Shown: positions 2 to 13,093 of the stretch, piece after piece
How the letters are laid out: each line of letters begins with the position of its first letter
How positions within the stretch are numbered: position 1 is the first letter of the stretch
DNA from: Halostagnicola sp. A-GB9-2
GTDB taxonomy: Archaea > Halobacteriota > Halobacteria > Halobacteriales > Natrialbaceae
Assembly (NCBI RefSeq): GCF_030068615.1
Contig: NZ_JASJOC010000004.1
Coordinates: forward strand, 372,001-436,000
Reading direction: 5' to 3'
Length of the DNA stretch: 64,000 nt
Program-made: the position numbers and the translations under genes
The notes under the pieces: generated by a model
What the model saw: only the letters and a program-made list of their open reading frames with translations
Databases searched by the model: none
What the model was told of the DNA's origin: nothing

Positions 2-1198
2 CGAACAGATACCGTCAACGCGACACAGGACGGTTCTTCGGCCGATTCGGAACTCGAGAGCGACGTAACTACGGCCGAGGTATCGGGTGGGTCGGCGACG
101 ACGTCCACCACTGATACCGCTTCGATCGACGAGGAGCCAAGCGACTCGTCGACGGGAATCAGTAGTTCGTCCCCGTCGGGAACCGCCGGCGTAACGGCGG
201 GAACTGAAACTGACGAACCGGTGACGGCGGATTCGGACGCGACTGGCGACGCGGAAGCCTCGGATACTGCGGAGACGGACGAGGGCAGCGAAAGCGACGA
301 TAACGGTTCGACCGGCTTCGGTCGGAAGGCCAAATCGCTTGTTCGCGGGAAGTTCGTCATCGAGGAAGAAGACCTTGAGGCTCCGCTTCAGGAACTCGAG
401 TTCGCGTTGCTCTCGAGCGATGTCGAGATGGGCGTCGCGGAGGAGATCCTCGACAACATCCGCGACGAACTGATCGGCGAGACGCGGACGTTTACGACGT
501 CGACGGGCGATGTCGTCGAGGAGGCGCTCCGAGATGCGATCTACGACGTCATCAGCGTCGGCCAGTTCGACTTCGACGAGCGCATCGCGACCGAAGACAA
601 GCCGATCGTCATCATCTTCACCGGCGTCAACGGCGTCGGGAAGACGACCTCGATCGCGAAACTCGACCGGTACTTCGAGGAACGCGGCTACTCGAGCGTG
701 ATGGCCAACGGCGACACGTATCGTGCGGGTGCCAACGAGCAGATCCGCGAACACGCCGAGGCGCGGGACAGCAAGCTCATCGCCCACGATCAGGGCGGGG
801 ACCCCGCCGCAGTGTTGTACGACGCCGTCGAGTACGCCGAAGCGAACGATATCGACGTCGTCCTCGGCGATACGGCGGGTCGGCTCCACACTGACGAAGG
901 GTTGATGGATCAACTCGAGAAGATCGGTCGCGTCGTCGGCCCCGATATGACCCTGTTCGTCGACGAGGCCGTCGCCGGACAGGACGCGGTGAACCGCGCT
1001 CGAGAGTTCGACGAAGCCGCCGAGATCGACGGGGCGATTCTGACGAAGGCGGACGCCGACTCGAACGGCGGCGCGGCGATTTCGGTGGCTCACGTTACCG
1101 GGAAACCGATCCTGTTCCTCGGTGTTGGCCAGGAGTACGACGATCTCGAGCGGTTCGATCCCGAGGAGATGGCGGATCGACTGCTCGAGGACGAGTAG
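2..1198 (+). CDS. ftsY: Signal recognition particle receptor FtsY (5' end outside window)
   Basis: SRP receptor GTPase that docks SRP-ribosome complexes at the membrane by forming a GTPase heterodimer with SRP54. The frame is open from base 2, so the true start lies upstream; the visible N-terminal part is a long Asp/Glu/Ser/Thr-rich linker of the kind that precedes the NG domain in haloarchaeal FtsY. After it come the four-helix N domain and a complete G domain: G1 'GVNGVGKTTS' (about 631-660), 'DTAGR' (about 871-885) and 'TKADAD' (about 1047-1064). The C-terminal end (ERFDPEEMADRLLEDE) is typical. The partner srp54 is about 17 kb downstream. Function is secure; only the start is missing. 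Confidence 0.95.
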   Translation, partial: RTDTVNATQDGSSADSELESDVTTAEVSGGSATTSTTDTASIDEEPSDSSTGISSSSPSGTAGVTAGTETDEPVTADSDATGDAEASDTAETDEGSESDDNGSTGFGRKAKSLVRGKFVIEEEDLEAPLQELEFALLSSDVEMGVAEEILDNIRDELIGETRTFTTSTGDVVEEALRDAIYDVISVGQFDFDERIATEDKPIVIIFTGVNGVGKTTSIAKLDRYFEERGYSSVMANGDTYRAGANEQIREHAEARDSKLIAHDQGGDPAAVLYDAVEYAEANDIDVVLGDTAGRLHTDEGLMDQLEKIGRVVGPDMTLFVDEAVAGQDAVNRAREFDEAAEIDGAILTKADADSNGGAAISVAHVTGKPILFLGVGQEYDDLERFDPEEMADRLLEDE

Positions 1199-2512: not shown

Positions 2513-2581
2513 ATGAGCGAGACAGCTATCTCGAGTACGCTACCAGCTGGTCGCCTTTTGACACGGCGGTGGTCTGCGTGA
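2513..2581 (+). CDS. Possible 22-residue leader peptide overlapping the reductase start
   Basis: An ATG frame of 22 codons (starts MSETAISSTLPAG, ends LLTRRWSA) whose TGA overlaps the GTG start of the reductase as GTGA. The TATA-like element at 2479-2487 is about 30 bp upstream, so a leaderless mRNA would begin at this ATG rather than at the reductase start. If translated, it would couple ribosomes to the reductase GTG. No family is recognised and no Cys or other amino-acid bias is obvious. It may be a chance frame. Confidence 0.3.
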   Translation: MSETAISSTLPAGRLLTRRWSA

Positions 2582-4278
2582 ACACGACCGAACAGTACAA
2601 ACAGAACAAGCATCCCCTTGACGTCCTTGACGATGTCTACGAGTACGCCGAGGACGGGCTCACCTTCGAGGAGATCGAAGAGCGAGCTGGCGACGGCGAG
2701 TGGGAGCGCCTGAAGTGGGCCGGTATGTACGCCCAGAAACAGGAGGGGTACTTCATGATCCGAACGAAGGTCCCCGGCGGAAAACTCACGCCTGAACAGG
2801 CCGAGGTCATCGGCGAAGTTACCGACGACCTCGCAGTCGCCCCCGAGGAGTACGGCGGCGAAGAGCAAAACGAACTCTGGGGAGACGCCTACCTCGACAT
2901 CACGACCCGACAGGATATCCAGAAACACTGGATCCGCGTCGAGGATGTCCCCGAAATGTGGGACCGCTACGACGAAGTCGGTCTGACGACGGTCCAGGGC
3001 TGTGGTGATTCCGCCCGGAACGTCCTCGGCTGCCCCGCGGCCGGGCTCGATGACCACGAGTGCTTCAACGCACAACCGGTTATTGACGCCGTCTCGGACT
3101 TCTTCACCGGCAACCGCGAGTACGCTAACTTGCCCCGCAAGTTCAAACTCACAATCACCGGTTGCGCTCACGACTGCGGCCAATCCCAGATCAACGATAT
3201 CGGGCTCGTTCCCGCGAAAAAGGAGATCGACGGGGAACATCTCTACGGCTTTCACGCCCGCGTCGGCGGCGGCCTCTCGGACGGGCCGCGGATGGGCTCC
3301 GAACTGGACGCGTTCATCCGACCCGAAGACGCCGTCGAGTTCTGTCGTGCTGTCGCCCAGACGTTCAAGGAGATCGGCGACCGAAACAACCGCGGCGTCT
3401 GCCGCATGCGCTATCTCGTCGAACAGCTCGGTCCCGAGAAGTTCGAGGAAGCCATCCGCGACCGCTGTACCGTCGACCTGCCCGACGGCGGCGAGAACCT
3501 GACCGTCGGCTACAAGGGCGACCACGTCGGCGTTCACGACCAGAAACAGGACGGACTCCAGTACGTCGGCTTCAACGTGATCGCCGGCCGTATGGGCGGC
3601 GACGAGTTCGCCGAGGCCGCTCGAGCGGCCGAAAAGTACGGCACCGAGGACGCCTCCGTGCGCCTCGCGACCGACCAGAACTTCCTCATCACGCACATTC
3701 CCGAAGAGAACGTCGAGGACCTTCTGGCCGAACCGTTCGCCGAGGACTATCAGCCCGATCCGGGGCCGTTCTCCCGCGGTGCGGTCGGCTGTACGGGCAA
3801 CGAGTTCTGTAATTACGCCATCATCGAGACCAAAAAGCGCACCAAGCGCTGGGCTCGAGAGCTTGACGAGCGCATCAACACGCCAGACGACCTCGACGTC
3901 GTTCGGATGCATATGTCCGGCTGCTCGGCCTCCTGTGCACAGCCACAGATCGCGGACATCGGTTTCCGCGGCGAGACGGTGAAGCTGGAAGACGAAGACA
4001 GTCCGAACGAGGAAGGTGACAACCTCGTCGAAGGAATGGACTTCGGCCTCGGCGGCTCGCTCGGCACCGACAACGAGTTCCTCGATTGGATCGAACACGC
4101 CGTTCCGGCCGACTCCGTAATTCCGGCCCTCGAGCGACTGTTCGACGCCTACGCCGAGGAGAAACACGACGACGAGCAGTTCTACGCCTGGTGTCGCCGC
4201 GTCGACAACGAGCGCCTTCGATCGATCATGCAACAGGCCGACGCGCCGGTTGCAGGAGGTGTTGCCCATGGGGATTGA
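2578..4278 (+). CDS. Siroheme/4Fe-4S nitrite or sulfite reductase (ferredoxin type)
   Basis: 566-residue assimilatory reductase that performs a six-electron reduction of sulfite or nitrite at a siroheme coupled to a 4Fe-4S cluster. The duplicated NIR/SIR ferredoxin-like and siroheme-binding halves are both present. The cluster/siroheme ligands are C405-x5-C411 ('CTGNEFC') and C449-x3-C453 ('CSASC'), the spacing seen in CysI/NirA. Start is probably GTG 2578 (MNTTEQYKQNKHP); GTG 2569 is an in-frame alternative. The 3' end overlaps the FrhB-like gene by 11 bp. No nitrate transporter, nitrate reductase or ferredoxin gene is nearby, so nitrite and sulfite cannot be separated from context; the F420-dehydrogenase partner slightly favours sulfite. 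Confidence 0.9.
   Translation: MNTTEQYKQNKHPLDVLDDVYEYAEDGLTFEEIEERAGDGEWERLKWAGMYAQKQEGYFMIRTKVPGGKLTPEQAEVIGEVTDDLAVAPEEYGGEEQNELWGDAYLDITTRQDIQKHWIRVEDVPEMWDRYDEVGLTTVQGCGDSARNVLGCPAAGLDDHECFNAQPVIDAVSDFFTGNREYANLPRKFKLTITGCAHDCGQSQINDIGLVPAKKEIDGEHLYGFHARVGGGLSDGPRMGSELDAFIRPEDAVEFCRAVAQTFKEIGDRNNRGVCRMRYLVEQLGPEKFEEAIRDRCTVDLPDGGENLTVGYKGDHVGVHDQKQDGLQYVGFNVIAGRMGGDEFAEAARAAEKYGTEDASVRLATDQNFLITHIPEENVEDLLAEPFAEDYQPDPGPFSRGAVGCTGNEFCNYAIIETKKRTKRWARELDERINTPDDLDVVRMHMSGCSASCAQPQIADIGFRGETVKLEDEDSPNEEGDNLVEGMDFGLGGSLGTDNEFLDWIEHAVPADSVIPALERLFDAYAEEKHDDEQFYAWCRRVDNERLRSIMQQADAPVAGGVAHGD
4255..4261 (+). promoter_or_regulatory. Shine-Dalgarno sequence for the FrhB-like gene
   Basis: GGAGGTG inside the 3' end of the reductase, 6 nt before ATG 4268. 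It selects that ATG over the in-frame TTG at 4250 and indicates translational coupling of the two genes. Confidence 0.75.
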
Positions 4279-5986
4279 TAGCGAGGACGAGCGAAGCGAG
4301 TCCTCGGAGACGCGAGCGGGAGCGAAGCGACACGCGAGCCGCGAGGACGAACGTAGTGAGGCCTCGGACCGAGCGAGCGGTGAAACCGCGAGCCGCGAAG
4401 ACGAGCAGCCGTTCCCCGGCGTTCCAGAATCCAGCGGCGACAACGCTGAAGACGTTATCGTCCCCGAAACCAGCGGTCGAGCGCCGCGGTCTCGGGCCGA
4501 CACTGACCACGCTCGAGAAGGACCCGTTCAGCCCGCAGGAAGCGGTGCAAGCGGCGACGCCGACGCCGGCGAGAGTTGCTCGCCGAACACCTGCACCTGC
4601 GGCGAGAAGACTCAGGAGAAAGCCGTTGCGACCGACGGTGCAGGGGTTGCAAATGTCGACGAACAGGGCAACCTCGGCGACCTCGAGTTCACAGAGCCTG
4701 CTGAGAACGCGAGCCAGGACGTCTACGACGACGCTCCCGATACGCGCGTTGGCGTTCCAGACGGCGTCGACCTTGAGACGCCGACGTACTCGATTCGCTC
4801 GGAGATGAACGACATCGAGACGCCCGACGAGAAAACCTGGTTCATGGAACTGGACGAGGCCGTCATCGACGACGGCCGCTGTATCCAGTGTGGGACCTGT
4901 GTCGCCGCCTGCCCGTCCGATTCGATCGGAATCGGCGACGATGGCAAGCCGGAACTCGTCAAGATGTGTACCGGCTGTTCGCTCTGTTGGGACTTCTGTC
5001 CCCGCGGCGGCCTGCGCTATGAACGCCAGTGGAAGATCACCGGCGGCGACGACAACGTCAAAGGTGCCGGCGATCCGATTACGGAGTTCTCCGCGCGAGT
5101 CGACGAAGACTGGACGAAAGGCGCACAGGACGGCGGCGTCGTCACGACGGTTCTCTCCCACCTCCTCGAGGCGGGCGAAATCGACGGTGCACTCATCGCG
5201 ACCGAAAGCGAGGACGAAGCCTGGAAGGCCGAAAGCTACCTCGCGACCAGTCACGAGGACCTGATCGAGAACGCCGGGACCATCTACAATCAGACGATGG
5301 CACTTGGCAACCTGAACCTCGATCGATGGGAGCACAAGCTCCCGGACAAGCCGTTCGACGAACTCAGCCTCGCGCTCGTCGGCACGCCGTGTGAGATCGA
5401 AGGGATCCGCGCCCTGCAGGACTTCGAGTGGGACTACCAGGAACAGAACGAGGGCATTCGTGCGGTCGACTACACGATCGCGTTGATGTGTACGAAGAAC
5501 TTCAACTACTACAGCCTCATGGGCGAGCAACTCGAGGATCAGCGCGGCATTTCGCCCGATGAGATCGGCAAGATGGACGTTCTCCACGGCAAGCTGATGG
5601 TCTACGACCACGACGGCGAGATGATTCTCGACGAAGACATCGAGAACTTCCACGACGCCGCGCTCAAAGGCTGCGACGAATGTGCCGACTTCACCGGCTT
5701 CTGTGCCGACCTCACCGTCGGCTCGGTCGGCTCGTCCGACGAGTACTCGAGCGTCATCGTCCGAACCGAACAGGGCATGAAAGCCTGGGAGATCACCGAA
5801 CCCGATCTGGACTACCACGACCTTGAGGACAAGTCCGCGGTCGGCAAGCTCCAGGGTTGGGACAAGAAGAAGGCCTTCGAGAGCCTCGAGCGACCGTTCG
5901 ATCCCGACGCACCCCGGTTCATCGACTACACGGACCACGCCGAGAACTACGGCACTGAGCTGAACCCGCACGACTACGGTCACTAA
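4268..5986 (+). CDS. FrhB/FpoF-like coenzyme F420 dehydrogenase with two 4Fe-4S clusters
   Basis: 572-residue protein. Residues 1 to about 190 are acidic and low-complexity, with a Cys-rich patch ('CSPNTCTCG', encoded near 4576-4602). Then come two ferredoxin-type motifs, C205-x2-C208-x2-C211-x3-C215 and C234-x2-C237-x2-C240-x3-C244, followed by the FrhB N- and C-terminal domains that bind FAD and coenzyme F420 in F420-reducing hydrogenase, FpoF/FqoF and the N-terminal half of methanogen Fsr. It starts inside the reductase gene behind a strong Shine-Dalgarno, so the two are made together. Inference: it feeds electrons, possibly from F420H2, to the siroheme reductase. The low-complexity N-terminus looks like a later insertion. 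Confidence 0.85.
   Translation: MGIDSEDERSESSETRAGAKRHASREDERSEASDRASGETASREDEQPFPGVPESSGDNAEDVIVPETSGRAPRSRADTDHAREGPVQPAGSGASGDADAGESCSPNTCTCGEKTQEKAVATDGAGVANVDEQGNLGDLEFTEPAENASQDVYDDAPDTRVGVPDGVDLETPTYSIRSEMNDIETPDEKTWFMELDEAVIDDGRCIQCGTCVAACPSDSIGIGDDGKPELVKMCTGCSLCWDFCPRGGLRYERQWKITGGDDNVKGAGDPITEFSARVDEDWTKGAQDGGVVTTVLSHLLEAGEIDGALIATESEDEAWKAESYLATSHEDLIENAGTIYNQTMALGNLNLDRWEHKLPDKPFDELSLALVGTPCEIEGIRALQDFEWDYQEQNEGIRAVDYTIALMCTKNFNYYSLMGEQLEDQRGISPDEIGKMDVLHGKLMVYDHDGEMILDEDIENFHDAALKGCDECADFTGFCADLTVGSVGSSDEYSSVIVRTEQGMKAWEITEPDLDYHDLEDKSAVGKLQGWDKKKAFESLERPFDPDAPRFIDYTDHAENYGTELNPHDYGH
4283..4405 (+). repeat. Low-complexity GAGGACGARCG repeats inside the FrhB-like gene
   Basis: Units such as GAGGACGAGCGAAGCGAG (4283) and GAGGACGAACGTAGTGAG (4339) alternate with GCGAGCCGCGA spacers. 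They stay in frame and encode a repeated S/A-R-E-D-E-R-S-E motif. Such GAGCGAAGCGAG-like tracts are common in haloarchaeal intergenic DNA, so this looks like an in-frame insertion. Confidence 0.6.
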
Positions 5987-8350: not shown

Positions 8351-8446
8351 CCGATCTGCACTCTCTTGCGATCATCGCTTGCAGTTTCTCGACATCGACG
8401 TCTCCAACAGCTATTGTACTCGAGCCCGAACCTTGAACCGACATCA

Positions 8447-8719
8447 ATGTCACGAACTGAACTCGAGAACGCGGCCGAATCGCTGACAGATGCGGCCGAC
8501 GCGGCCGGCAACGACGAAGCGCGCGAACGACTGGAGAAACAATCGAACCAACTCAACCAGCTCGCGACAGCCGACCGCGGCCCCGATCACGGTCGACTCG
8601 CCCGTCACGAACACATCATCACCGAGATCGCCGACGAGGAGGGCGGTGACGTTGCCGATCACGCCGACGACGCACTTGACTCGATTCACGAGTTCCGCGA
8701 AACGCTCGAGGGCGTCTGA
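8447..8719 (+). CDS. Small acidic helical protein, conserved haloarchaeal type
   Basis: 90 residues, strongly acidic and predicted all-helical, with an N-terminal amphipathic repeat ('ELENAAESLTDAADAAGNDE') and the segment 'DHGRLARHEHIITEIADEEG'. No catalytic motif, signal or membrane segment. Upstream in-frame codons exist, but ATG 8447 starts the acidic composition. Free-standing, 96 bp after thiM. Function unknown. Confidence 0.7.
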   Translation: MSRTELENAAESLTDAADAAGNDEARERLEKQSNQLNQLATADRGPDHGRLARHEHIITEIADEEGGDVADHADDALDSIHEFRETLEGV

Positions 8720-8752
8720 TCTCCCGGAGGCGCTGGCCACTAGGGCGTCGAA

Positions 8753-9382
8753 TCAACAGACTGGTTTCGGATTCGCCCCCATCGCCTCGAGACTCTCGAC
8801 GTACTCGCCGTAGGCGGCTTCGATGGCTCCTGTTGCGGCCTCTTCGGCCCGATCCCAGTCGTCCTCCCCGTTACAGACTGCCTCGAGGAGGTCGGTAACC
8901 CGCTCGAGTTGCTCGTCTAAATCCCCGCCGAACTCGCGGAACAACTGTGCACTCTGGGGATCTGCGTTCCCGACGAAGTAGCCGACGACCTGCTCTTTCG
9001 AGTGCTTGCTCGCGAGGATCCGTCCGGCGAACGCGCCGACTCGAGGAACGGTCGACTCGAGCCCGCGGAGATACTCGTGGAGCGCGGGAACGGTCTCGGG
9101 GTCGTACGCCTCGAGTTGCTCGGAGACGGTTTCGTAGTGCTCCCGTTCTTCTTCGGCGGTCGTCTCGAACGCTTCGCGCGCTCGGTCGTTCGATTCGTCT
9201 TCGGCCCACTCGTCGAACGTATGCCATGCGGCGTACTCGGCGTCGGCGGTCGCCTCGAGGACCGGTTCGGTGTCGATATCGCCGTCCGTGGCGGCGTACA
9301 GCGACTTTGACGACCCGAGTCGGGAGAGCGGTGTCTGGTTCGTCTCACGAACGCGGTCGAGAAACGTCTCGCCATTGGTCAT
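8753..9382 (-). CDS. Ferritin-like (rubrerythrin-type) helical protein
   Basis: 209 residues, mostly helical. Candidate di-iron ligands of a ferritin-like four-helix bundle are visible: E49 in 'DAEYAAWHTF', the E79-x2-H82 motif in 'AEEEREHYE', and later 'LFREFGGDLDEQLE'. Members of this haloarchaeal group have been labelled rubrerythrin or transcription antitermination protein; neither role is shown by the sequence. No C-terminal rubredoxin domain is present. Single gene on the minus strand, convergent with the preceding small gene. Confidence 0.65.
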   Translation of the reverse strand: MTNGETFLDRVRETNQTPLSRLGSSKSLYAATDGDIDTEPVLEATADAEYAAWHTFDEWAEDESNDRAREAFETTAEEEREHYETVSEQLEAYDPETVPALHEYLRGLESTVPRVGAFAGRILASKHSKEQVVGYFVGNADPQSAQLFREFGGDLDEQLERVTDLLEAVCNGEDDWDRAEEAATGAIEAAYGEYVESLEAMGANPKPVC

Positions 9383-9586
9383 GGATCGGCCTACGATCGG
9401 AATCGAGTTAGTTGTGTCGTGATAGCGTCGAAGTGGATCCTATTTCACCCTCAACCGACCTTTTTGTGCCGGGTAAAACGGCGGTTTGGCGGTCGTTACT
9501 CGGCGGTATTCGGTCCCTTCTACCGGTTGAACTGACGGTAATGAAGTCATAACAATCTCCGAACGTGGAACGTCTTCAAGTGAACA

Positions 9587-10804
9587 ATGAAACGACGAAC
9601 GTACCTCGTAACGACAGCAGGCGTCGTAGGACTCGCTGGCTGTGCGGGCTCGGGAGACGATCCCGAAGATGACGAAAACGGTGACGAGGACCCGAACGAA
9701 GGCGGCGATCCGAACGGAGATAACGTCGAAACCGACGACGACGGAACGTTCGACGATTTCGAGGATCTCGACGCGTGGACGGAGGTCGAAGGCTCGCTCA
9801 CAGCCGACGAAGATCGATCGCTCGTCGGCTCTCAATCCGCGCGACTCGAGGCATCGGAATCCGACAGCGGCGTCATGATCCGACGCGAGTTCGATTCGCC
9901 ACAGGATTTCTCCGACGAGGTGCCCGGGCTGGCAGTCGCCTCCGACGACCTGCAGAATCCGATTATCCAGCTCACCGACAAAAACGGCGACCGGGTCGAT
10001 TTTCGCGGCCGGTCTGCCGCGGATATGCCGCTCATGCGGTACAACTTCGGCGTCGGTTCGATCGACGGCGATCCGGACCTCTCTGCGATTTCCTCGATCC
10101 AGATCGCGTCCTGGACCGGCGACGAAAAGGAAAAGGAATTCTGGTGTGACGATCTGTACTTCACGCCGCGTCCAGAGACGGGCACGGTGATGGTCCAGTT
10201 CGATTACGGCTACGAGACGACTTACTCCGAAGGGTTCCCGGTTCTCGAGGAGTACGACATTCCCGCGACGGCGTTCGTCAACACCGATTTCGTCGGTGGC
10301 GACTCTCGAATGAGCCAGAGCGAACTCGAGGAACTGCACGACGCCGGGTGGACGATCGCCAGTCAGTCGGCGAACAACGGCGATCTGACCGACACGGACG
10401 ATCCGTCCGCACAGATCGAATCGGCCGTCGAGTGGCTCGAGGACAACGGCTTCGAGGACGGAGCGGGCTACTTTGCGTACCCGCTCGGAAACTTCGACGA
10501 AGCCGCAGTCGAAGCCGCCGGCGATCACCACGACCTTTGTTTCGCGAGCGGCTACGGTGCGGGCGGCCAGATCACCAACACCACACTCTGCCCGCGCATC
10601 GGTGACCCGGATCCGGAGGATGCACGAGAACTCCTAGAGTGGACCGCGGAGATGAACGGCCTCACGACGCTTTACTACCACGAACTCGAGGACGATCTGC
10701 TCGACTCGTTCGAGGAGACGATGGCCGACCTGAGCGAGATGGAAGCCGACGGGGAGCTCGAGGTCGTTCTCCCCGGTGACGTCGAAGAAGAGTACGTGCT
10801 CTAG
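9587..10804 (+). CDS. Polysaccharide-deacetylase-like lipoprotein, catalytic residues lost
   Basis: 405-residue exported protein. It starts with a Tat-type signal (R3-R4) and lipobox 'LAGC' with C19 as the lipidated residue, then a Glu/Asp/Gly-rich linker, a beta-sandwich-like region (about 55-195) and a NodB-homology domain (about 200-370). The NodB motifs are degenerate: the usual D-D is D206-Y207 ('QFDYGY') and the metal-binding H-x3-H is Q260/N264 ('SQSANNGD'), while 'FAYPLGNFD' is retained. Family knowledge says the Asp-His-His triad binds the metal, so this is probably a non-enzymatic carbohydrate-binding protein. Faces outside the cell. Confidence 0.8.
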   Translation: MKRRTYLVTTAGVVGLAGCAGSGDDPEDDENGDEDPNEGGDPNGDNVETDDDGTFDDFEDLDAWTEVEGSLTADEDRSLVGSQSARLEASESDSGVMIRREFDSPQDFSDEVPGLAVASDDLQNPIIQLTDKNGDRVDFRGRSAADMPLMRYNFGVGSIDGDPDLSAISSIQIASWTGDEKEKEFWCDDLYFTPRPETGTVMVQFDYGYETTYSEGFPVLEEYDIPATAFVNTDFVGGDSRMSQSELEELHDAGWTIASQSANNGDLTDTDDPSAQIESAVEWLEDNGFEDGAGYFAYPLGNFDEAAVEAAGDHHDLCFASGYGAGGQITNTTLCPRIGDPDPEDARELLEWTAEMNGLTTLYYHELEDDLLDSFEETMADLSEMEADGELEVVLPGDVEEEYVL

Positions 10805-11146: not shown

Positions 11147-12010
11147 TTACTCAGCCTCGCCCGTCTCTACCGGCGCGTTCACAAGATTGCCCCACTCGGT
11201 CCAGGATCCGTCGTAGTTGACGGTGTCCTCATAGCCGAGCAGTTCGTGCAGTGCGAACCACGCAACCGAGGAGCGCTCGCCGATTCGGCAGTAGGCGACG
11301 GTCGTTTCGTCGCCGTCGATTCCCTTCTCGGCGTAGAGCTCCTCGAGTTCCTCGGGACTCTTGAACAGGCCGTCGTCGTCCGTGACCGCCGCCCAGGAGA
11401 TGTTCTGGGCACCGGGGACGTGGCCGCCGCGCTGGGCCGTCTCCTGGAGCCCTGGGGGTGCGAGAATCTCGCCGCGGAACTCCTCGGGCGAGCGAACGTC
11501 GACGAGCGGAACGCCGCGTTCGATCGCGTTTTCGACGTCTTCGCGGTAGGCGCGGATGCTCTCGCGCGGCCCGGCGGCGTCGTACTCGACTCCGGAGAAG
11601 TCGGGCTCCTCGTCGGTCGTTGGATAGTCGTTCTCGAGCCAGTACTCTCGACCGCCGTCGAGCAGGTAGACCTCGTCGTGGCCGTAGTACTTGAACTGCC
11701 AGTAGGTGTAGGCGGCGAACCAGTTCGAGTTGTCGCCGTAGAGGACGACCGTCGAATCCTCGGTGATGCCGTGGCTGCCGAGGAGGTCCTCGAAGTCCTC
11801 TTTCTCGAGGATATCCCGTCGCGTCTGGTCCTGCAGTTGGGTCTCCCAGTTAAACCCGATCGCGCCGGGTGCGTGTGCGTCGTCGTAAGCTTCCGTATCG
11901 ACGTCGACCTCGACCAGTCGAAGCTCCGGATCGTCGCTCTCGAACTCGTCGAGTCGTTCTTCGACCCAATCAGCCGTTACGAGTACGTCGTTGGCGTAGT
12001 CTGTTGCCAT
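11147..12010 (-). CDS. Thiosulfate/3-mercaptopyruvate sulfurtransferase (tandem rhodanese) A
   Basis: 287-residue protein with two rhodanese domains. The N-terminal domain is inactive-like ('VVLYGDNSNWFAAYTY'); the C-terminal domain carries the catalytic C241 in the six-residue loop 'CRIGER' plus 'LVDVRSPEEFRGE'. It transfers sulfane sulfur to a thiophilic acceptor such as cyanide or thiols. ATG 12010 (MATDYANDVLV) fits the family start better than the frame beginning 27 bp upstream. Divergent from a second tandem rhodanese at 12203, with 192 bp between them. Confidence 0.92.
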   Translation of the reverse strand: MATDYANDVLVTADWVEERLDEFESDDPELRLVEVDVDTEAYDDAHAPGAIGFNWETQLQDQTRRDILEKEDFEDLLGSHGITEDSTVVLYGDNSNWFAAYTYWQFKYYGHDEVYLLDGGREYWLENDYPTTDEEPDFSGVEYDAAGPRESIRAYREDVENAIERGVPLVDVRSPEEFRGEILAPPGLQETAQRGGHVPGAQNISWAAVTDDDGLFKSPEELEELYAEKGIDGDETTVAYCRIGERSSVAWFALHELLGYEDTVNYDGSWTEWGNLVNAPVETGEAE

Positions 12011-12202
12011 ACATTCCACTTGGATCGAGAACCACAAAGAACCCCTTCTAACCGGACAATGCGGTCACAGCTTCATTTTGGCGGATAGCGTTGCCTCTTA
12101 ATCTCAAAAGTGTTGGATCCGTCGGAGCGTAAACCGTGCGTATAGCGTTGCTACCGTCGGTTTGTTTGTTTTTTCCGTGGAATCTCTGATCGTTTGCAAC
12201 GG

Positions 12203-13093
12203 ATGACGGAAACATTTGCCACCACCTCGGCACCCACGAGAGCGGTGCCGGAACCGGTGCCCTCTCGAGGCTCCGACGACATGGTAGCGCCAATGGATGA
12301 TTCGCTCGTCGTTTCGCCGGAGTGGCTCGCGGAACACCTCGAGGATCCGATGGTCCGTCCCGTCGACGTGCGGGACGCTTGGGAGTTCGACGGCATCGGC
12401 CACGTTCCGGGCGCAGTGAACGTTCCCTTCGACACCTATCGCGACGCGTCGAACGACGAACCCGGAACGCTTCCCGGCGCGGACGCCTTCGCCAACCTGC
12501 TCGAGGAGTCCGGAATCGAACCCAGGGATACGCTCGTCGCCTACGACGACATGCACGGCGTGTTCGCCGCCCGTTTCGTCCTGACCGCGTGCGTCTACGG
12601 CCACGACGACGTTCGACTCCTCGACGGCGACTTCAGCGCCTGGAGTCGCGAACACGAGATGACGAGCGACGATCCCGAAATCGAGTCCTCGAGCTACGCG
12701 CCCGATCCGCTGACCGCCGAGGAGAGCCCGTTGATCGACCTTGAGGGGGTCGAAGCCGCGCTCGAGCGCGACGCCGCATTCGTCGATACGCGCGAGCGCG
12801 AGGAGTTTGCGGAGGCCCACCTCCCCGGCGCGGTTCGGTTCGACTGGCGGGAAGTCGTCGACGACGAGACGCGGCGGCTAAAGCCCGAAGACGAACTCGA
12901 GGAGCTACTGATCGACCACGGCATTACGCCCGACCGAGAGATCGTCCTCTACTGCAACACGGCCAGACGGATCAGCCACACCTACGTCGTCCTCCGGGCG
13001 CTGGGCTACGACGACATCGCGTTCTACGAAGGGAGTCTTACGGAGTGGATCGCGGCGGACGGTGCGCTCGAGACCGAGACCGAGTCGCGTTGA
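12203..13093 (+). CDS. Tandem-rhodanese sulfurtransferase B
   Basis: 296 residues from ATG 12203; ATGs at 12281 and 12293 are alternatives and the latter (MDDSLVVSPEWL) matches the conserved start. Two rhodanese domains; the C-terminal one holds C251 in the loop 'CNTARRIS', which differs from the CRIGER loop of its divergent neighbour and suggests another acceptor. 'PVDVRDAWEFDGIGHVPGA' and 'FVDTREREEFAEAHLPGA' are the two CH2A-like motifs. The two genes look like diverged paralogues sharing an intergenic control region. Confidence 0.88.
   Translation: MTETFATTSAPTRAVPEPVPSRGSDDMVAPMDDSLVVSPEWLAEHLEDPMVRPVDVRDAWEFDGIGHVPGAVNVPFDTYRDASNDEPGTLPGADAFANLLEESGIEPRDTLVAYDDMHGVFAARFVLTACVYGHDDVRLLDGDFSAWSREHEMTSDDPEIESSSYAPDPLTAEESPLIDLEGVEAALERDAAFVDTREREEFAEAHLPGAVRFDWREVVDDETRRLKPEDELEELLIDHGITPDREIVLYCNTARRISHTYVVLRALGYDDIAFYEGSLTEWIAADGALETETESR

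Follow-up and report, generated by a model that had tools for sequence, protein, structure and literature searches.

The window analysed here, 64,000 nucleotides (nt) of contig NZ_JASJOC010000004.1 (positions 372,001 to 436,000) from the haloarchaeon Halostagnicola sp. A-GB9-2, contains two overlapping genes, alpha, which specifies a siroheme reductase, and beta, which specifies an FrhB-like flavin/iron-sulfur protein. Together they are predicted to encode aFsr, a two-subunit, F420H2-dependent assimilatory sulfite reductase, with a probability that we put at roughly 0.6. The host genome comprises 4.68 Mb in 38 contigs, and the nearest named relative is Halostagnicola sp. A56 (beta, 91%). The features of the pair and its junction are:

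2578..4278, + strand: alpha, predicted siroheme-[4Fe-4S] subunit of an assimilatory sulfite reductase, two-repeat NirA type (Pfam, phmmer, structure model)
4268..5986, + strand: beta, FrhB/Fsr-N-type flavin/iron-sulfur subunit, from ATG 4268 to its end at 5986, predicted F420H2 dehydrogenase (Pfam, phmmer, fold)
4268..4278, + strand: gene overlap of 11 nt, from the beta ATG to the alpha TGA (sequence; length of 11 or 8 nt at all 63 named loci parsed)
4255..4259, + strand: Shine-Dalgarno-like GGAGG within alpha, 8 nt before the beta ATG (sequence)

These coordinates bear out the original prediction, made from the letters of the window, which had described a complete siroheme reductase open reading frame (ORF) overlapping by 11 bp that of an FrhB-like protein with two 4Fe-4S motifs, and a Shine-Dalgarno sequence inside the first gene. 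The second protein does match the Pfam models FrhB_FdhB_N and FrhB_FdhB_C and the 4Fe-4S dicluster models. Alpha has an alternative start, GTG 2569, from which its residues are numbered; GTG 2578 is preferred, as the alignment of many orthologues begins at residue 4.

The conservation of the pair was followed in two surveys. The first compared gene positions in 242 haloarchaeal genomes (same class), and the second used an independent collection of named organisms, the best 80 of 238 beta relatives being kept. Of the 242 genomes, 71 have beta and 212 an alpha-like protein, and beta adjoins alpha on the same strand at 64 of 64 close alpha orthologues (identity of at least 72%). A further 22 pairs belong to a second, paralogous kind (type 2, the window pair being type 1), with one more (G002, L044) found on reading the region. 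Alpha lies upstream of beta in 79 of the best 80 named relatives. Adjacency is far beyond chance; a search of haloarchaeal genomes for neighbouring copies had been proposed along with the original prediction, and the pair turned out to be conserved and not rare.

All 63 named loci that were parsed have an in-frame beta start (59 ATG, 4 GTG) at the junction, and its overlap with the alpha stop is exactly 11 or 8 nt; a purine-rich stretch, defined by a permissive pattern, stands at the GGAGG position in 62 of them. The retention of this overlap argues strongly for translational coupling and for a beta start at 4268, and such coupling would keep the subunits in register. It is highly improbable that the genes are merely adjacent and that beta is a general adaptor for other F420 enzymes. 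Two betas do occur without alpha, one of them beside a FAD_binding_2 protein and an SDR, but such cases are rare among the 89 beta matches and 80 loci of the two surveys, the overlap geometry is without exception in the parsed loci, and the type-2 pairs retain the same two partners.

The lone betas lie at L045:7801-9084 and L188:3953-5368, and the first also adjoins a phage-type integrase, an arrangement that looks like recruitment of the F420 module to a different reaction. A DNA repeat family was considered at the 5' end of beta and rejected, the 15-mer occurring only twice in the genome.

The siroheme subunit and its substrate

Alpha contains the Pfam domains NIR_SIR (E-value=2.4e-53) and NIR_SIR_ferr (E-value=1e-30), each twice, and is a full two-repeat enzyme. 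Its nearest solved sequences, as found by phmmer in the PDB, are plant nitrite reductases (E-value=2.5e-85). Its AlphaFold model (pLDDT 84) gives the best fold match to M. tuberculosis NirA (1zj8; Z=46.2, root mean square deviation 2.3, 510 residues, 33% identity). NirA takes electrons from ferredoxin and is not known to have an FrhB partner. A passage of PMC11237513 cites it as a reported sulfite reductase (Schnell et al. 2005). The residues on which the assignment of alpha turns are:

3139..3147, + strand: Lys191-Phe-Lys193, sulfite-type active-site pair, with Lys193 where nitrite reductases have Asn226 (alignment to tobacco nitrite reductase)
3790..3936, + strand: Cys408-x5-Cys414 ... Cys452-x3-Cys456, ligands of the siroheme-coupled [4Fe-4S] cluster (same motif in tobacco nitrite reductase)

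In the alignment, R65, R150, K191 and K193 of alpha occupy the places of R109, R179, K224 and N226 of the tobacco enzyme and so match its four anion-binding residues, Lys193 being of the sulfite type. The distinction at this position, lysine in sulfite-type and asparagine in nitrite-type enzymes, has been described for Fsr (PMC13381448). The K-x-K motif is found in 31/31 type-1, 23/23 type-2 and 17/17 type-3 alphas, with Lys193 in all 31 of type 1. The same genome encodes another siroheme reductase (G000:C33:89567-91210; L072, L075), 39% identical to alpha, which carries the nitrite-type K-F-N. The genome therefore has an enzyme of each type, and beta is coupled to the one of sulfite type. No nitrate reductase neighbours the paralogue, which has housekeeping genes nearby instead. 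The four cysteines of the siroheme-coupled cluster are invariant in the A2 alignment, and Tyr54 and Cys145, conserved in 31/31 type-1 alphas, would lie by index arithmetic at about the place of NirA Tyr69-Cys161, a covalent Tyr-Cys pair being a mark of the NirA-type sulfite reductases.

Several of these results weigh against sulfite as the main substrate and would fit a pair that works chiefly as an ammonium-forming nitrite reductase in nitrate assimilation. Plant nitrite reductases are the closest sequences; K-x-K is compatible with nitrite, which is reduced by siroheme enzymes carrying this motif, among them Fsr with the same lysine pair (PMC13381448); and alpha scores below every NCBIfam cut-off, its top score being that of ferredoxin-nitrite reductase (386.9 vs 594 bits). 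Such a function is nevertheless improbable, given the lysine at position 193 throughout type 1, the separate K-F-N paralogue, the fusion of the sister class, type 2, to a sulfur-handling rhodanese, and the finding of no nitrate reductase or transporter beside the pair in the ORFs scanned. Membership of alpha in the ferredoxin-nitrite reductases (NirA/NasD) was rejected, both because Lys193 replaces Asn226 and because the score lies below the cut-off. Sulfite would be the main substrate of the predicted aFsr, with nitrite perhaps reduced as a side activity, and the reduction of sulfite to sulfide, for cysteine, the assimilatory role.

Three further cysteines of the N-terminal repeat, Cys155, Cys199 and Cys203 (window 3031-3177), are fully conserved in type 1 and almost fully in types 2 and 3. 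The exceptions seem to lack all three at once, and the nitrite-type paralogue has none of them. The three may form a second metal site. A third haloarchaeal class of siroheme reductase (L076-L092), approximately 42-46% identical to alpha, has K-W-K, lacks beta and is very common in the class.

The flavin subunit, coenzyme F420 and electron transfer

Motif counts in beta refer to 57 type-1 rows, about 10 of which are shortened second reads of the same genomes, and to 23 type-2 rows. The features of the protein are:

4880..4999, + strand: two [4Fe-4S] motifs, CIQCGTCVAAC and CTGCSLCWDFC (residues 205-244); eight Cys in 57/57 type-1 and 23/23 type-2 rows
5078..5902, + strand: FrhB-type FAD domain (residues 271-545) with QDGG loop and proximal-cluster Cys375, 408, 469 and 472 (57/57 rows; aligned to FrhB, Fsr, CODH zeta and FwdI)
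4577..4600, + strand: Cys-rich motif CSPNTCTC (residues 104-111) in a variable N-terminal arm; C-x4-C-x-C(G) in 46/58 type-1 beta rows
4628..4852, + strand: conserved N-terminal segment (residues 121-195), not in Fsr; candidate docking segment for alpha

The Pfam matches of beta are FrhB_FdhB_C (E-value=1.9e-33), FrhB_FdhB_N (E-value=7.1e-20) and the dicluster models, and residues 198-545 follow the arrangement of the N-terminal half of Fsr (Fsr-N), that is, two [4Fe-4S] motifs and then an FrhB domain. Its solved relatives are, in phmmer order, the N half of MjFsr (E-value=3.6e-39), the zeta subunit of an F420-reducing CO dehydrogenase (CODH; E-value=8e-38), FwdI and FrhB, all of which react with F420 (PMC10229431, PMC11493965). 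Structure comparison, covering residues 262-541, likewise places beta with FrhB, FwdI and Fsr-N (Z=16.6-20). The AlphaFold model reaches pLDDT of about 70-93 only in parts of the FrhB core; it stays under 50 over most of the N-terminal arm and ferredoxin domain, from which nothing was read. From sequence, residues 121-195 have a mean best-residue frequency of 0.73-0.98 per 10 residues, compared with 0.24-0.66 for residues 1-120. The type-1 rows without the CSPNTCTC pattern have CGCG-like variants or nothing at this place, and the motif is absent from type-2 beta and from Fsr.

An alignment with the F420-binding residues of FrhB, another check proposed with the original prediction, was performed using published landmarks (PMC3591093, PMC3930138) and gave a divided answer: the FAD loop and all iron-sulfur cysteines are invariant and GSVGS is retained, whereas the lysines of the F420 channel are only partly kept. 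The lysines of the IGKGK loop of FrhB are conserved at this channel and are thought to hold the F420 phosphate (PMC3591093). In type-1 beta the loop is weakened, the first lysine being replaced by His, Asp, Asn or Glu and the second present in 44/57 rows; in type-2 beta the second is mostly lost. HCAR also matches the beta fold (Z=16.5). It is an FrhB-fold enzyme that uses ferredoxin.

The weakened loop and the HCAR match weigh against F420H2 as the donor, and could be explained if beta were a dedicated electron-transfer flavoprotein for alpha, fed by reduced ferredoxin or NAD(P)H, whose F420 pocket had decayed as in plant HCAR. We consider this rather unlikely. By sequence, beta is much nearer to the F420-using Fsr, CODH zeta, FwdI and FrhB, and HCAR is not among the phmmer matches listed to E 0.1. 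FwdI, an F420 reducer, also lacks the glycine-lysine of the loop, and one FsrII from ANME archaea uses F420H2 despite a deviating, negatively charged pocket (PMC9295563); the loss in beta therefore neither proves nor refutes F420 use, which remains likely for the pair.

The host genome has both cofD (F420 biosynthesis) and npdG (NADPH:F420 oxidoreductase), above curated cut-offs, and can therefore probably make F420 and reduce it from NADPH. All beta-positive genomes of the 242 carry cofD. This gene is, however, found in 239/242 haloarchaea, so that its presence, although a necessary condition, discriminates nothing; F420 biosynthesis was dropped as a discriminating test, since it merely fails to refute. 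Nearly all haloarchaea probably synthesize F420.

The mechanism proposed for aFsr would run as follows. Beta would bind FAD and accept hydride from F420H2, itself regenerated from NADPH by the host NADPH:F420 oxidoreductase. Electrons would then pass singly from the proximal [4Fe-4S] cluster of beta through the two ferredoxin-type clusters to the siroheme-[4Fe-4S] center of alpha, the subunits presumably forming a complex, and alpha would reduce sulfite to sulfide with six electrons, at three F420H2 per sulfite.

Related systems, the source of sulfite and meaning

In 2012 Susanti & Mukhopadhyay (PMC3448663) predicted that haloarchaea have an F420H2-dependent assimilatory sulfite reductase and gave it the name aFsr, which was used again in PMC9295563; the literature searched yielded no biochemical test of the enzyme. 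The pair in the window is an instance of this published aFsr, from which it shows no difference in kind, sharing the haloarchaeal host, the assimilatory-type siroheme alpha, a beta with an FrhB domain and two N-terminal [4Fe-4S] motifs, and the link through genome context. The claim of the original prediction that such an enzyme would be new is therefore wrong. Its wording of a split-gene counterpart of Fsr is inaccurate as well, because the siroheme half is of another kind, as the 2012 authors had themselves distinguished. Fsr (group I, Methanococcales) resembles beta in its N-terminal ferredoxin-FrhB half and shares the logic of F420H2, FAD, a [4Fe-4S] chain and siroheme, but it is a single polypeptide with a single-repeat, Dsr-like C half and an inserted ferredoxin, whereas the window has two genes and a two-repeat NirA/assimilatory-type alpha. 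Fsr matches only one half of alpha, whereas alpha and NirA align along the full length of alpha. The same ferredoxin-FrhB module serves other redox enzymes in CODH zeta and FwdI of Ca. Ethanoperedens (8riu, 8rja), for which F420 activity has been measured (PMC11493965); unlike the role predicted for beta, these subunits reduce F420 and serve CO dehydrogenase or formylmethanofuran dehydrogenase. What the present analysis adds to aFsr is the overlap geometry, the contrast of sulfite-type residues with a nitrite-type paralogue in the same genome, the N-terminal arm of beta and a rhodanese-fused sister class.

The sister class consists of the paralogous type-2 pairs in 23 genomes (L036-L044, L095-L108; for example L036:5989-8391 and 8392-9654). 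Its alphas have about 800 residues, of which the N-terminal 250 form a tandem rhodanese (active-site motif CNTARR, 23/23), and an FrhB/Fsr-N-type gene lies directly downstream in all 23. In a quick tree that carried long-branch warnings, alphas of types 1 and 2 form one group from which those lacking beta are separate (SH-aLRT 87), consistent with a single origin of the alpha-beta partnership. Halobacterial rhodanese-NirA fusions have been noted before (19/529 proteins, the FrhB-type partner unmentioned; PMC11237513). They are of the same siroheme family as the window alpha but belong to the type-2 pairs. The F420-type partner of the published fusion was not found in the literature searched. 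Genes elsewhere in the window that relate to these comparisons are:

12194..13093, + strand: stand-alone tandem rhodanese with CNTARR active site (Pfam Rhodanese)
221..1198, + strand: FtsY-type signal recognition particle receptor, upstream neighbour of the pair (Pfam SRP54; same neighbours in L054)

The fused domains are 39-54% identical to the rhodanese at 12194-13093, which is of their subfamily, and less like that at 11147-12037. These two tandem-rhodanese genes of the window are divergent, the latter lying on the - strand. The former is a neighbour, 6 kb downstream of the pair, only within the family, and its relatives occur in 219/242 genomes; its nearness is therefore weak evidence. Upstream, alpha-beta follows an eIF6-prefoldin-ftsY cluster in several other genomes too, suggesting that the pair is an old, vertically inherited one that some lineages have lost. 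The recurring neighbours scanned at type-1 pairs included the ftsY, prefoldin and eIF6 housekeeping genes and none of sulfur or nitrogen metabolism.

Haloarchaea are reported to lack the classical route to sulfite through adenosine phosphosulfate (APS) and phosphoadenosine phosphosulfate (PAPS), and for Natrinema sp. J7-2 a route from thiosulfate through sulfite to sulfide has been proposed, involving a rhodanese and a sulfite reductase, NJ7G_0294 and NJ7G_0304 (PMC3402447). The two are ten locus numbers apart, which resembles the spacing in the window. A rhodanese-sulfite reductase route has also been described in Halanaerobium (PMC5497025). The rhodanese-alpha fusion of type 2 supports, short of proof for the window pair, thiosulfate as a source of at least part of the sulfite. 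We suggest, tentatively and with considerable doubt, that haloarchaeal sulfide may come from thiosulfate via rhodanese and an F420H2-driven sulfite reductase in two forms: the window pair with a separate rhodanese, and a fusion of rhodanese and siroheme reductase that, with its F420-type beta, would reduce thiosulfate and sulfite with F420H2 as one compact enzyme. On this view, sulfur might be handled in type-1 beta by the flexible Cys-rich arm, in the way that the rhodanese handles it in type 2. A PAPS reductase family gave two matches in the host genome, which are uninterpretable, the family being broad and having matches in all 14 controls.

Sulfide formation in haloarchaea is poorly understood (PMC3402447), and as of 2021 a single F420-dependent reaction was on record for these organisms (PMC8305020). 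The conserved two-gene unit links haloarchaeal F420 use with the formation of sulfide and is a direct target for the bench. If the prediction of aFsr is true, an F420-oxidising module would have been combined with siroheme reductases of two kinds on independent occasions.

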